Part shown: piece after piece, positions 33,498 through 38,548 of the stretch | How the letters are laid out: every line of letters begins with the position of its first letter | Position numbering within the stretch: the first letter of the stretch is position 1 | Source: Clostridia bacterium | GTDB lineage: Bacteria > Bacillota > Clostridia > Christensenellales > CAG-138 | Assembly: GCA_017429985.1 (NCBI GenBank) | Contig: JAFRNW010000006.1 | Span: 1 to 64,000, forward strand | Reading direction: 5' to 3' | DNA length: 64,000 nt | Program-made: the position numbers and the translations under genes | Notes under the pieces: generated by a model | Database searches by the model: none | Told to the model about the DNA's origin: nothing | Seen by the model: only the letters and a program-made list of their open reading frames with translations

Positions 33498-33527
33498 AAA
33501 AAGAGCAGGCGCATACGGCACCTGCTC
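33498..33527 (-). terminator. Terminator of the DUF937 gene
   Basis: The 7-bp arms GAGCAGG/CCTGCTC are followed on the minus strand by TTTTT, 26 bases after the stop. Confidence 0.75.
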
Positions 33528-33553
33528 CGGATGGTATTGAAATGGAAAACGGA

Positions 33554-34642
33554 TCAGTCTTTCTTCTTTGCTGCCGTGGTCTTCTTCGCGGCCGTGGTTT
33601 TCTTTGCGGTTGACTTCGCTGTCGTCTTTTTCGCGCCAGTCTTTTTAGAAGCGGTCGTCTTTTTCGGCGTCTCGGGCTGAACAGGTTCGGCCGATCTTGT
33701 GGCGTCATACGAGTCGTCTCCGAAGATGGAGCCAAGCAGAGAGCCGAGAATACCGCCGCCGGAGGACTGCTGCTGCGGCTGATTATTCGTCAGGAGCGAA
33801 CCGAGAATGCCGCCGGAAGACTGCTGCTGCTGGTTGTTCGTAAGGAGCGTGCCGAGCAGGGCGTCACCGAGTCCGGAAGACTGCTGTTGCTGCTGTTGCT
33901 GCGCCTGCTGCTGCTGGAGAAGCTGCTGCTGCAGAAGCTGCTGCTGTAAAAGCTGCTGTTGCTGCTGTTGCTGCGCCTGCTGATTGCCTCCGAGCAGAGA
34001 ACTGATCAGCGCCCCCTCCAGGCCGGAACCGTAGCTGTTCGTCTGTACCGGCTGGCTGTTGCCGCCGAGCAGAGAACCGAGCAGGGCGCCGCCGAGACCG
34101 CTGCCCGTATTGCCGGAGTAGTTGTTTCCGCCGAGCATGGAGCCCATGAGAGCGGAAAGAAGGGAGCCGGAACCGCTGGTGTTGCTTCCGCCGAGAAGCG
34201 CGCCGAGAAGGCCCGGTGTTCCGCTGGACTGCTGATTGTTGTGTTTGCCGAGCAGGGAAAGAAGGAGCGGCGCGACCAGTGCGATGATCAGGGACGTTTT
34301 GTTCAGAGACAGACCCGCGCGTTTTGCGATCTCCTTCTGAACCTCCTGATTCTCATCGCCCAGAACGTGCGCCACGATCTTTTTGCCGTCTTCCGTGTCG
34401 GCATTGTCCAGGAAGTTCTTGATGTCACTGGTATCATCGACCGCATGATTGGCCAGCGCCTTTTCAAGCGAATTGAGCCCCTCCTCAGCGGATGAGTTCC
34501 TGTGCATGCCGAGAATCATCAGGGGAATGGCGGCGGAGATAACGTTTTTAACATCCTTTTGCGTCACTTTCGCTTTTTTGCTGATGGACTTGAGAGCGTC
34601 ATCACCGACAAGCTGTTTAAAAAGATCAAAGTTATCGTTCAT
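33554..34642 (-). CDS. DUF937 protein with polyglutamine region and lysine-rich tail
   Basis: This 362-residue protein is of unknown function. The N-terminal 130 residues form a helical DUF937-type domain (FDLFKQLVGDDALKSISKKA, then AKRAGLSLNKTSLIIALVAP). Next come repeated Gly/Leu-rich units of the form GLLGALLGG, LLSALMGSMLGG and GALLGSLLGG. A Gln/Leu tract follows (about 218-260), then more GILGSLLTNN units. The C-terminal 35 residues are a KKTTA-type lysine/alanine/threonine tail like histone H1. The start is the ATG 9 bases after GGAGGGA. The tail suggests contact with nucleic acid or acidic polymer. It has its own promoter and terminator. Confidence 0.8.
   Translation of the reverse strand: MNDNFDLFKQLVGDDALKSISKKAKVTQKDVKNVISAAIPLMILGMHRNSSAEEGLNSLEKALANHAVDDTSDIKNFLDNADTEDGKKIVAHVLGDENQEVQKEIAKRAGLSLNKTSLIIALVAPLLLSLLGKHNNQQSSGTPGLLGALLGGSNTSGSGSLLSALMGSMLGGNNYSGNTGSGLGGALLGSLLGGNSQPVQTNSYGSGLEGALISSLLGGNQQAQQQQQQQLLQQQLLQQQLLQQQQAQQQQQQQSSGLGDALLGTLLTNNQQQQSSGGILGSLLTNNQPQQQSSGGGILGSLLGSIFGDDSYDATRSAEPVQPETPKKTTASKKTGAKKTTAKSTAKKTTAAKKTTAAKKKD
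33881..33981 (-). repeat. CAG/CAA-type low-complexity repeat coding polyglutamine
   Basis: About 100 bases of CTG/TTG triplets (CAG/CAA on the coding strand), broken by CTC/CTT/TTA leucine codons, encode runs of Q with LL every few residues. Such tracts can change length by slippage. Confidence 0.85.
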
Positions 34643-34673
34643 TCGTTTCAATCCCTCCTATAATGTTGATTTC

Positions 34674-34702
34674 AGTATATTATTTCCCTATTTCAGTGTC
34701 AA
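34674..34702 (-). promoter_or_regulatory. Promoter of the DUF937 gene
   Basis: Perfect -35 TTGACA and -10 TATACT, 17 bases apart on the minus strand, just after the transglutaminase gene. Confidence 0.8.
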
Positions 34703-34713
34703 GAAAGCGCATA

Positions 34714-37332
34714 TTACGGCTTCGGTTCTGATACGGCAGGATAGCGGAGCGCGATCCAGATCCTGCGCGGCAGTCCGGCGTGATTCCGGACGCTTCCCCT
34801 GAGATTCCCGTACGCTTTCAGCACCCGGTCCCTGTCCGCTGTCCGGACCTGCCGCGAGGAAAACATCGTTCTTTCTGCCGCGCCGTAGACAGCAAGGATA
34901 TCCTGGCCGTCGATCCAGGGAAGCTCCGTGCGGATCCGTTCCGCATATTCTTCCGGCACTTCGTCCGGGCGGATGGACGATCCGCCCGCAAGGCGTATCA
35001 TTGCGTCGCATTCCTTCGCCGCGTAAAGAACCGAGCGTTCCGGATCCCCGTACAGCCTCTCCTGTCGCTTCCTCCTGTTGAAGAGATACGCGGCAGCCGT
35101 TGCGCCTGCGGTCAGCAGCAGGACCAGGATCCGTATTACAGCGCTACGGACGCTCTTACAGACGCCCGGTGATCCGGCCGTGCCGGCGCCGGGCAGGATG
35201 ATGTCTGCCCCCGTGCCTCCTTCTCCGTGCTCCGTAACCGGCTCTCCGTCCGGACCAGGTTCCGCCGTTTCCTGTCCGGGAACTTCCCCTTCCGGATCCG
35301 GTTCCGTATCGGTTTCCTCTTCCGGTGACAGTTCATCATCCGGCTCTCCCGTTGCTTCCGGTTCTGGCGTTGCGTCCGGTTCAGGCGTTAAACCTTCCTC
35401 TTCCGGCTGGTCTTCAGGCTCGTGCGTATCGGCGGGCTCCGGCGTTGCGGTCGGAGGAGGCGTCAGCGTGGGAGCAAGCCCTCCGGCAGCCGCATCGTTC
35501 CCTTCGTTCGGCGTCATTTCCACGGGGATCCATTCGAGCTGCAGCGGGTCGAACACTTCGACCCACGCATGCGCGTGCGTGTCCTCAATATCAAAATAGC
35601 CCTCTTCATCCGTATCCTTCAGATAGTCCGACTGAACGATGATGTATCCCTCCGCGTACCGCGCGGGGATCCCGAGAGAACGGAGCATGACCGCGGCGGT
35701 CGTCGCGAAATGGATGCAGTATCCCTGCCTGCTTTGATTCATGAAATACGTGGAGAAATCGGCGTCAGCCGGTATGGCGGGCGGATCGTAGGAGTAGCTG
35801 CAGTATTCATTAAAGACCCTCTGCAGGGATGAACAGACAGCCGCGGGGTTCAGCGTGCCGGAGTCTGTTACGTCCGTGATCCCGAACTGTTCGCACAGCG
35901 CTTTTCCGCACTTTGCCGTGTCCTCGGGGAGCTGCGTATAGTAATCAAAGATATATCGCAGATAATGGGAAATGTCATCGTACACGGATGACTTCCCGAA
36001 TCTGTTCTTGATGACGGCCGCGTATCCTTCCATGATCGCGTCAGTTGGATCTGCACTGGCGGAGACCGGAATGTTTGCGAATGCGTTCCTCAGCTGAAGC
36101 GCGTATACGGAATATCCCGATATCCCCGCTCCCCCGTCCGTATCGATCCCCGTATCGTTCCGGTACCGGGTGCCGTTCAGGTCGTCCGTTCCGGTTAACA
36201 GTCCCTGCGGAAGCACAAGAGAGCTGATCTGTTTCCGGTCCGACTTGAGGGAGAACAGATATCTTTGTTCTCCGTTCCCGAGGATGCGCTCGGCTTCCGC
36301 GTGCAAAAGAAGCGGGTTCGTTCCGATCACATAGGATTCATAGGTCTGTGCGGGAACCTCTTCCCAGCCGTCGTCGGTATATACGGTACCCGCGAAATTG
36401 CGGATATACAGGGAAAGCCGTTCCGATACGCGCGCTTTCAGCGCCGTTGCTCCGGTAAAACGGATCTCGGAAAGATCCCTAAAACGCCCGTGGCTGAGCC
36501 CGTCGTTCGGCCTGCCGATCAGATCGCCGAGTTTCGATTCGTAAACGGACTCCCGGATCCTGTTCCAGATGTCCGGTTTCTCATATCCTTTTTCCGGTAG
36601 GATCAGCGACGAAACGCCGAACACGGAAAAAGCCATGATCACGGCGGTCAAGGCAGCCATGGCCCTGAGAGACGGACGTTTCCTGATCCGGTCCAGCCTG
36701 ACCTTCAGACTGAGTTCGGTATCTTCGGATACCGAAGCGGAAAGAAGCCCTCCGTATCTTCTGAAAATGGAAAACGCAAACCAGGCGGCAAGGATCGCAA
36801 AAAAGGACGCTGTATTTCCGGAAAGCGAGAAGAACAGCCCCGGGAACAGGCACGGAACGGAAGCAGCTGTGAGAAGAAGCAGGCTGTCCCCTTTCGTGAC
36901 CGCGTATGACGCCAGTATCGTGCTGATGAACATCAGCGTGCACAGCGCGTAGAAAACGGACGCCCCCTCCTCGTGAAGAAGCGTTGCAAGAAGTTCAGGA
37001 AGCTTTCCTCCGCAGGCACTGAACAGATCTCTGATCAGCATCAGCCAGCTCTGCACGAGCTCGTCGGCGTGGAACCAGATAAACAGGCCGGAAAGCGCGA
37101 CGCTGACGGCAAACAGCACGGCGCTGCTTTTCAGCGAAAAAATCACCAGATAGATCAGGCAGAACGCTAGCGTGACAAGATACGGGGCAATGCCACCGCT
37201 GAGCCTGTATTCCGTAACAAAGCAGAAATAGAACCCGGTCTGGGCAAGGAAAAGGATCAGCAGACGGACGGCGTACTCGTAGAGCGGTACGGCCGGACGC
37301 GCGGGATTTCCATTTTTCGCCCCGTTACGCAT
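34714..37332 (-). CDS. Transglutaminase-like membrane protein
   Basis: This 872-residue protein has six or seven N-terminal hydrophobic segments (about 20-270). A large extracytoplasmic region contains a transglutaminase-type Cys protease fold, with catalytic Cys in RQGYCIHFATTAAVMLRSLG and His in DTHAHAWVEVFD. A Pro/Glu/Thr linker of PEPDATPEPE type, a final membrane segment and a cytosolic tail (YAAKECDAMIRLAGG) follow. The gene overlaps DUF58 by 8 bases. The moxR-DUF58-transglutaminase trio is common in bacteria; the role is poorly defined, probably envelope protein maturation. The start is the ATG after GGAGGAATCGGAA; a 30-codon upstream extension is rejected. Confidence 0.88.
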   Translation of the reverse strand: MRNGAKNGNPARPAVPLYEYAVRLLILFLAQTGFYFCFVTEYRLSGGIAPYLVTLAFCLIYLVIFSLKSSAVLFAVSVALSGLFIWFHADELVQSWLMLIRDLFSACGGKLPELLATLLHEEGASVFYALCTLMFISTILASYAVTKGDSLLLLTAASVPCLFPGLFFSLSGNTASFFAILAAWFAFSIFRRYGGLLSASVSEDTELSLKVRLDRIRKRPSLRAMAALTAVIMAFSVFGVSSLILPEKGYEKPDIWNRIRESVYESKLGDLIGRPNDGLSHGRFRDLSEIRFTGATALKARVSERLSLYIRNFAGTVYTDDGWEEVPAQTYESYVIGTNPLLLHAEAERILGNGEQRYLFSLKSDRKQISSLVLPQGLLTGTDDLNGTRYRNDTGIDTDGGAGISGYSVYALQLRNAFANIPVSASADPTDAIMEGYAAVIKNRFGKSSVYDDISHYLRYIFDYYTQLPEDTAKCGKALCEQFGITDVTDSGTLNPAAVCSSLQRVFNEYCSYSYDPPAIPADADFSTYFMNQSRQGYCIHFATTAAVMLRSLGIPARYAEGYIIVQSDYLKDTDEEGYFDIEDTHAHAWVEVFDPLQLEWIPVEMTPNEGNDAAAGGLAPTLTPPPTATPEPADTHEPEDQPEEEGLTPEPDATPEPEATGEPDDELSPEEETDTEPDPEGEVPGQETAEPGPDGEPVTEHGEGGTGADIILPGAGTAGSPGVCKSVRSAVIRILVLLLTAGATAAAYLFNRRKRQERLYGDPERSVLYAAKECDAMIRLAGGSSIRPDEVPEEYAERIRTELPWIDGQDILAVYGAAERTMFSSRQVRTADRDRVLKAYGNLRGSVRNHAGLPRRIWIALRYPAVSEPKP

Positions 37333-38548
37333 TTCCGATTCCTCCCTCCTCTTCCGGCACTTCGCCGCTAACCATCTGAAGATCGCAGCCGAGTTCCCGG
37401 ATCTCCCGCGGATACGATTCATCGCAGCCGACGGGCATCACCGTGATCCTCCTGCAGAGGTTGGAATCCATCAGCATGGAGAAGATCTCTTTTTCTTCCC
37501 CGTTCAGTTCCTTTGCGGACGCGGTCCCGCCGATCATGTAAACGAGGTGCAGTTCCGTTGAAAAGGGAGCCTGCATCGCGAGATTCCGGATCGTCTCATA
37601 GGGGGAGCTTGCGGGCATGCCGAGCATTTCGTGGAGCGCAGCCGCGAGCGATTCCGTGTCGGAAACACGGACGGTATGGAAAACGGAATCCTCGCCTATC
37701 CAGCTGATATGGTGAAGGACGTCGCGGGAAACGAGCGTTTCGGAAACCGACATCAAAGTCCCCATGACGCTTTCCTTTTCCTCGGGACTCGCTTTTTCTC
37801 TAATCTCCACCAGGAAATGGACGAGCGGGCTGAGCGGAAGACCGTACTCCTTTACAATCAGCCGGTTCATCCGTCCCGAAAGCTTCCAGTGGATGCTGTG
37901 ATGCGCGTCCCCGGGCACATAATCCCTTAGATCGAATATCTCGGACGGATCGTTTCCCGCCCGTTCCGTCGAATACGTGCTGCTCTCAATGCCCAGATCC
38001 GAGGAATTCTCCGTTTCGACAAGGCAGTCCACCGTATCCGGAAACACGTACAGACTGTCCGTATCGCACTGGCAGTTCTGACCGGGAACCTGAAAGCGGA
38101 ACAGGCCCAGAATATCGTAAACATAAACATGCCGGAGACCGAAATCGATCCTCCCGCATTCATCGAAGCGGATCGTGATCGGAAGACGGGCGGACTTTTT
38201 CCCCCCGATCGCGAAGTCCGCCGCCGCTTCCCCGGAAGAAGGCGGAACGTTCACGGAGCGGCCGAACGCGTTGGAGCATGTGATCCGTACCTGTCCGTTC
38301 AGACACGGAAGCATGGATTCATTCCGGATATTCAGTTCCAGCGGGGTGTCGCCCTTCGGCACCATGTCGTCCTCCACGGAAAGGCTGCAGTATATCCTGC
38401 GGCGCAGCGGAAGCGTCAGGAGAAGGGATAGAACAGGCAGAATCAGCAGCGCGATCAGCAGCAGATGAAACGCGTACGCTTCAAATGCCGCGAACAAAGC
38501 GACAGCGAGGATCAAGATATCAAGATAGAGGATCCTGTACCTTGCCAT
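37325..38548 (-). CDS. DUF58 domain protein
   Basis: This 407-residue protein has two N-terminal membrane segments (LYLDILILAVALFAAFEAY onward) and a beta-rich region. The DUF58 core is RDYVPGDAHHSIHWKLSGR near residue 215, followed by a von Willebrand-A-like segment. It is the standard partner of MoxR ATPases and lies 3 bases after moxR and 8 bases overlapped with the transglutaminase gene, so all three are translationally linked. The molecular role is unknown. Confidence 0.88.
   Translation of the reverse strand: MARYRILYLDILILAVALFAAFEAYAFHLLLIALLILPVLSLLLTLPLRRRIYCSLSVEDDMVPKGDTPLELNIRNESMLPCLNGQVRITCSNAFGRSVNVPPSSGEAAADFAIGGKKSARLPITIRFDECGRIDFGLRHVYVYDILGLFRFQVPGQNCQCDTDSLYVFPDTVDCLVETENSSDLGIESSTYSTERAGNDPSEIFDLRDYVPGDAHHSIHWKLSGRMNRLIVKEYGLPLSPLVHFLVEIREKASPEEKESVMGTLMSVSETLVSRDVLHHISWIGEDSVFHTVRVSDTESLAAALHEMLGMPASSPYETIRNLAMQAPFSTELHLVYMIGGTASAKELNGEEKEIFSMLMDSNLCRRITVMPVGCDESYPREIRELGCDLQMVSGEVPEEEGGIGNA

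Follow-up and report, generated by a model that had tools for sequence, protein, structure and literature searches.

A conserved three-part DUF937 protein and its recurrent membrane partner in a family of Clostridia

Described systems closest to the DUF937 gene

DUF937 (Pfam PF06078) is a protein family without known function, and in the open literature (5.39 million papers), as far as its accessible text goes, two papers name it, each within a list (e.g. PMC10100675), in agreement with a preliminary description of the DNA studied here, which had called the function unknown. Two pseudomonad proteins offer comparable layouts. AlgP of Pseudomonas aeruginosa is an H1-like protein connected with the spacing of polyphosphate granules and has, by the accessible portion of its description, a C-terminal lysine/alanine low-complexity tail as in histone H1 (PMC9239181), and the phasin PhaF of Pseudomonas putida, according to the part of the source available, combines an amphipathic assembly part with a DNA-binding C-terminal domain (PMC3574117). 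Within the available text of these sources, these proteins show that, in bacteria, an H1-like tail can be associated with a granule as well as with DNA; to the protein described below they are analogous, not related.

This protein is encoded in a window of 64,000 nucleotides from a Clostridia bacterium (contig JAFRNW010000006.1), whose genome (G000) has a size of 2.13 Mb, is 98% complete and yielded a single DUF937 copy. The reading frame given for it in the preliminary description, from ATG to stop on the minus strand, was recovered unchanged, and the features of the locus are collected in Table 1. Given that the promoter-like site and the terminator-like hairpin, both of them pattern matches, bracket the gene, it may be transcribed alone.

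Table 1. Features of the DUF937 locus, with positions in the window and residue numbers of the encoded protein
Feature	Position	Strand	Basis or remark
Transglut_core gene	34714-37422	(-)	Directly upstream of the Gln-/Lys-rich DUF937 protein
Sigma-A-type promoter-like site, TTGACA-17-TATACT	34674..34702	(-)	Consensus match 11/12, not functional proof
RBS-like AGGAGGG	34653-34659	(-)	Read directly in the sequence
Coding sequence, 362 aa, ATG start	33554..34642	(-)	ATG at 34642, stop ends at 33554
DUF937 domain, aa 7-133, all-helical in model	34244..34624	(-)	PF06078, E 7.4e-24
Helical hairpin copy 1, aa 4-48	34499..34633	(-)	AF2 model and hhalign
Helical hairpin copy 2, aa 83-137	34232..34396	(-)	AF2 model and hhalign
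First block of GLLGxLLGG-type motifs, aa 143-219, G/S/N-rich spacers	33986..34216	(-)	Motif starts at aa 145, 161, 165, 187, 212
Q/L tract, aa 220-254, LLQQQ units between two AQQQQQQQ copies	33881..33985	(-)	This genome only among those examined
Second motif block, aa 258-308, running into GSIFGDDS	33719..33871	(-)	Motif starts at aa 262, 279, 298, 302
Lys/Thr/Ala tail, aa 323-362, no secondary structure in model	33557..33676	(-)	Composition and model
Intrinsic terminator-like hairpin, 11 pairs then T-rich run	33502..33528	(-)	Pattern match

The tail of the window protein is lysine-rich, of low complexity and strongly basic, as in the H1-like tailed proteins AlgP, PhaF and Hc. Its likeness to AlgP lies in this C-terminal end (PMC9239181, in its available part) and that to PhaF in the order of an assembly part and a basic C-terminus (PMC3574117, likewise). 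Unlike AlgP, however, it has DUF937 as its sole Pfam match above cut-off and comes from a genome without a PPK1 match, and it showed no match to phasin at E up to 1. A role in granule positioning, with the domain and repeats coating a polyphosphate or PHA granule and the tail tying it to the chromosome, would agree with the layout of assembly part and H1-like tail that the accessible texts give for both proteins (PMC9239181, PMC3574117), but is very unlikely, since in a survey of storage-polymer genes that covered PPK1 and PhaC, PPK1 (PF02503) was found in 5 of the 103 genomes of the host's bacterial family and not in that of the host, and PhaC (PF07167) in 0 of 103. This gene content disfavors a role at either type of granule.

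The window protein matches nearly the whole DUF937 domain and shares its two-hairpin make-up with the relatives aligned, while relatives from outside the host's bacterial family are shorter; three of the six from the phylum sample (G393, G423 and G259) lack the lysine tail, closing instead with an acidic loop and then a GG-rich or G-rich helix. A DUF937 protein from a Saprospiraceae metagenome-assembled genome (L055, JABFRV010000029.1) resembles the window protein in its GLLG-type stretches, a run of nine glutamines and its terminal sequence, GGLLGDLFGKIFGR, but has no lysine tail; its glutamine run is likely independent, given that it belongs to another phylum. More distant is YidB of E. coli (YidB-like family PF20159), residues 68-106 of which resemble one of the hairpins. 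YidB scores below the cut-off of the DUF937 profile (E 2e-4), PF20159 was not matched by the window protein at E up to 1, and YidB, with 132 aa, is unlike the window protein in having neither leucine repeats nor a lysine tail. In E. coli K-12, the gene of this distant relative (L185 3068-3466) adjoins gyrB-recF-dnaN-dnaA.

Architecture and conservation of the DUF937 protein

In searches against Pfam, DUF937 alone exceeded its cut-off for the window protein, with 85.1 bits against a curated value of 25.4. The AF2 model of the domain, built from two sequences (the window protein and its Saprospiraceae counterpart), is all helical, with helices at residues 4-24, 28-48, 52-64, 71-80, 83-109 and 113-137 (pLDDT 74, pTM 0.73), and both results support the helical DUF937 domain that had been proposed earlier. 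The last of these helices is the only strongly hydrophobic stretch of the protein, and a hydrophobic N-terminus is absent. Judged by profile, the first and last hairpins of the domain are copies of each other, as hhalign aligned the first part with the last part over 37 columns at a probability of 92% (P 6.6e-7). This two-hairpin make-up is common to the DUF937 relatives aligned; in 17 single sequences, the z-scores of this self-likeness spread between -0.8 and 8.8, with 6.3 for the window protein. The full-length model is poor, with a mean pLDDT of 53.7, and weak outside the domain.

The PDB gave no match to the window protein in a sequence search; the hits to the DUF937 profile were limited to HU (best E 0.17) and a chain of DUF442. 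Foldseek on the domain model returned nothing at E <= 0.001 (best 0.71), and a second comparison by VIA, covering Foldseek's own matches only, reached a best Z of 3.4, to other folds; no convincing fold match emerged from these comparisons. The HU result is relevant to a reading in which the protein is nucleoid-associated and H1-like, its tail compacting DNA and the rest oligomerizing, with the membrane partner described below being a regulator or linked for other reasons. We consider this unlikely: the composition and charge of the tail argue for it, as do a weak similarity, by profile, between one hairpin and the helices of HU and the position of yidB beside the gyrB-recF-dnaN-dnaA genes, but the E value of the HU match is not significant, neither Foldseek nor VIA found a convincing fold, and the repeats and the recurrent partner are left unexplained.

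Behind the domain, nine LLxxLL-type motifs (overlaps counted) were found, where 5000 shuffles of these residues gave 0.04 on average and never more than 2, which confirms the GLLGALLGG-type repeats reported in the preliminary description. The GSIFGDDS ending of the second motif block also occurs in g10 orthologues (the G009 and G031 proteins). Between the two blocks, the Q/L tract reads NQQAQQQQQQQLLQQQLLQQQLLQQQQAQQQQQQQ; its description as a CAG/CAA-encoded tract was accurate, with 38 CAG and 5 CAA codons for the 43 glutamines of the whole protein, and TRF detected a CTG array and a 15-nt array in its DNA. A single helix is modelled over it (aa 209-254), with a pLDDT per block of ten residues of 41-84 that peaks at aa 231-240. 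Polyglutamine had also been taken for the core of the protein, and this did not hold: the longest glutamine run is of 7 residues here and of at most 4 in the other 48 copies of the bacterial family, a comparison above strain level as the family search contained no other genome of the host genus. Given that runs of more than four are confined to this genome among the 49 copies, the tract is a local expansion and not a core. The KKTTA tail, in turn, deserves its comparison with histone H1, having 14 lysines in 43 residues and a net charge of +12; its lysines, threonines and alanines are encoded by mixed synonymous codons.

DUF937 was found in 48 of the 103 genomes of the host's bacterial family, at 49 loci including that of the window, and 45 of the copies are complete, those of G094, G101 and G123 and the second copy of G091 being cut by contig ends. 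A lysine tail, called where 15 residues held at least 4 lysines and at most 2 acidic residues, is present in 40 of the 45 complete copies, spanning 8 of the 10 DUF937-bearing genera, and all 40 share one charge pattern, the middle of the protein ranging from -4 to -15 and the tail from +10 to +24. Untailed complete copies are those of G111, G114, G063, G068 (short, 194-195 aa) and G080. The end of the G080 protein (L102, g13) reads as Arg/Pro-rich, suggestive of a frame slip within low-complexity DNA. At least two GLLG-type motifs, counted with a looser pattern than the LLxxLL one used for the window protein, occur in 43 of the 45, with zero counted in G082 and G083. The spacers between motifs vary by genus (Ser/Gly, Asn or Asp/Glu), and the lengths of repeats and tail vary widely.

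In 13 pairs of copies, dN/dS, a rough value here owing to low-complexity alignment, lay at 0.05-0.29 in the domain, at 0.03-0.46 in the repeats and, for 9 of the 11 tailed pairs, at 0.06-0.34 in the tail, the other two being synonymously saturated (pN/pS 0.30 and 0.38); constraint on the repeats was weaker than on the domain in several pairs and stronger in others. By these sequence comparisons, the repeats and the tail look to be under purifying selection. The helical domain, the short leucine motifs and the lysine-rich tail are a conserved three-part design.

The preliminary description had raised the possibility that orthologues lack both tail and Q tract, which would make these dispensable expansions; the tail is kept in 40 of 45 copies, and the Q tract is not shared. 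A broader form of this idea, that repeats and tail are neutral low-complexity expansions and that the DUF937 domain alone does the work, could draw on the variable lengths, on the absence of the tail from four copies within the family and 6 of 11 outside it, and on the Q tract, which looks like a recent duplication. It is nevertheless quite improbable in view of how widely tail and motifs (43 of 45) are retained and of a dN/dS below 0.5 for both in every computable pair, and neutral expansion is likely true of the Q tract, not of the rest.

A membrane partner and a proposed mechanism

A second protein, equally uncharacterized, recurs with DUF937 in this bacterial family. It has about 240-330 aa, a lysine-rich N-terminus (22% Lys, net positive in 53 of 59 copies measured), four hydrophobic segments (Kyte-Doolittle, four copies measured) and a C-terminal part with a conserved H, C and CxxC. 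Across an alignment of 16 copies, the invariant residues are, in the numbering of the host-genome copy, R72, W79, W129, P137, K143, G153, F161, W227, G231, H235, C240, C272 and C275, and the conserved H and C residues may bind a metal. No match above cut-off was obtained against Pfam (two proteins) or NCBIfam (one), none against the PDB at E up to 1, and the partner was not found in a scan of viral contigs.

Among the 103 family genomes, 48 have both proteins, 0 have DUF937 alone, 13 have the partner alone and 42 have neither. The partner is thus present in 48/48 genomes with DUF937 against 13/55 without (Fisher 1.5e-17 by genome, a P value that overstates independence, as the genomes are related), and the corresponding tally by genus is 10/0/1/15 (P 2e-6). 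One of the partner-only calls, that of G011, is a C-terminal match inside a 1045-aa frame. At 39 of the 49 loci the partner adjoins DUF937: it lies upstream on the same strand at 22 g2 loci, in g21 (2), g9 (2) and G111, is divergent from DUF937 at 11 g13 loci and lies downstream in G007. An unlinked partner, elsewhere in the genome, goes with the other 10 loci, from five genera (G000, G023, G032, G114 and six of g10), that of the host being on a different contig from the DUF937 gene (G000:C7:3843-4484), while in G091 each of the two DUF937 copies has its own adjacent partner. Given that the untailed G111, G114, G063 and G068 genomes keep the partner, the pairing does not depend on the tail. 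We contend that the DUF937 protein and the partner are very probably linked in function, which makes the partner the first functional handle on DUF937. As far as searches of the open literature go, neither the tripartite architecture nor the link to the partner has been described before, although a subscription paper or preprint could exist.

The hydrophobic segments of the partner also bear on the possibility that the DUF937 protein is itself membrane-active, its GLLGxLLGG motifs lying as short amphipathic helices in the inner leaflet beside the partner and its tail holding anionic lipids, with nucleic acid uninvolved. The leucine-rich motifs with G, S or A between them are consistent with this, as is a weak match to the glycine-zipper membrane family PF05433 (E 0.012), but that match is under cut-off, the motifs are only about 10 residues long, are separated by polar spacers and are modelled as short low-confidence helices, and the Kyte-Doolittle mean stays below 1.6 in every 19-residue segment of the repeats. 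We therefore regard a membrane-active protein as a rather unlikely explanation.

In the reading that we favor, the product of the DUF937 gene is the soluble member of a module of two proteins. The DUF937 domain with its two hairpin copies and the many leucine motifs (GLLGSLLGG and variants) on flexible polar spacers would form a multivalent, self-assembling cytosolic scaffold, the lysine-rich tail would bind a polyanion, with DNA of the nucleoid or RNA as the likeliest candidates, and the membrane partner, with its lysine-rich N-terminus and metal-knuckle-like C-terminal part, would place the assembly at the membrane. From the three-part architecture, its conservation and its one-way link to the partner, all directly observed, we infer self-assembly, polyanion binding and membrane recruitment, and the mechanism as a whole is offered tentatively, as possible rather than probable. 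If true, such a membrane-tethered polyanion-binding scaffold would give bacteria a novel means of organizing their interior. The earlier suggestion of a bacterial condensate or filament former survives in part. Repeated motifs, together with spacers and a tail modelled at low confidence, make the sequence of the window protein compatible with a scaffold of this kind, and a multivalent protein with a basic tail would fit the retention of repeats and tail under apparent purifying selection; assembly driven by glutamine does not fit, as the tract is found only here.

A bolder version of the scaffold reading can be speculated on, although we hold it to be distinctly unlikely. The last domain helix ends in APLLLSLLG and motifs read GALLGSLLG, and the motifs may therefore mimic this helix and dock on other DUF937 domains. 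In an undescribed membrane-to-nucleoid (or membrane-to-RNA) tether, GLLGSLLGG motifs docked on neighboring DUF937 domains would yield a polymer, the H1-like tail would gather nucleic acid, the knuckle-bearing partner would act as the anchor, and the Q/L tract would be a lineage-specific extra assembly element.

Genomic surroundings and distribution outside the family

The neighbors of the DUF937 gene in the window encode TrkA, TrkH, a transglutaminase-like protein and a MoxR-type ATPase, and the gene between the latter two gave no Pfam hit at 1e-5. TrkH is the only one of these neighbors seen again close to DUF937, in a single g25 genome and on the opposite strand. The position of the Transglut_core gene, directly upstream and on the same strand, could suggest that the glutamine tract and lysine tail are cross-linked by its product. 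Transglutaminases beside MoxR-type ATPases usually face outward, however, and the window protein lacks a hydrophobic N-terminus; as the Q tract is restricted to this genome and no neighbor cluster shared between genera contains a Transglut_core gene, this neighbor is probably there by chance, and a role as transglutaminase substrate is extremely improbable. A link to sporulation was rejected, given that Spo0A_C is found in 98 of the 103 family genomes and does not separate those with DUF937 from those without. The host lineage may have lost sporulation, as its genome is one of the five family genomes without a Spo0A_C match.

In a sample of 299 genomes of the phylum, the host included, DUF937 was found in 6 others and the full-length partner in 3 others (G135, G285 and G310), all of which have a lysine-tailed DUF937, whereas G259, G393 and G423 have DUF937 with neither lysine tail nor full-length partner; six further genomes gave weak partial partner matches (E 2e-4 to 6e-4). 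Among the 297 genomes of an order sample, DUF937 was present in 12 and the full-length partner in 18, G056 adding a partial match; both proteins occur in 11 genomes, the partner alone in 7, and DUF937 without a detected partner in one, G539, which is 68% complete. The partner was found in 4/5 DUF937-bearing genomes of f17/f153 and in 3/3 of f41. Tailed DUF937 proteins outside the family are those of G135, G285, G310, G499 and G624, and the partner accompanies 5/5 of the tailed against 2/6 of the untailed proteins there. Untailed copies inside the family have a partner, in contrast to most of those outside.

The partner also occurs without DUF937, in 13 family genomes as well as in G040, G454 and G532, and these tallies indicate that DUF937 of this group implies the partner and not the reverse. 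Fourteen partner-only loci were inspected, comprising G006, ten others of the family, G040, G454 and G532, with G107 and G011 left out. At 13 of them (all but G006), no H1-like lysine-tailed neighbor was found, the lysine-rich frames flagged being the partner itself and two short proteins, which we take to be ribosomal. In G006, where DUF937 was not matched, the gene just upstream of the partner (L139 6685-7035, minus strand) encodes a protein with an N-terminal KKTTA stretch; this stretch sits on an unrelated helical-looking part, and the protein takes the position of DUF937 beside the partner.

Two minor observations concern single parts of these proteins. The C-terminal part of the partner alone (profile positions 214-263) weakly matches further proteins from the phylum, L154, L155 and L158 (G339, G259 and G314), at E 2e-4 to 5e-4. 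In addition, an EF-hand-like acidic loop (e.g. DADGDGNIMDD) is seen in the non-family DUF937 proteins L104, L106, L107, L108, L109 and L055, lying inside the domain in L055 and near the protein end or before the tail in L104 and L106-L109.
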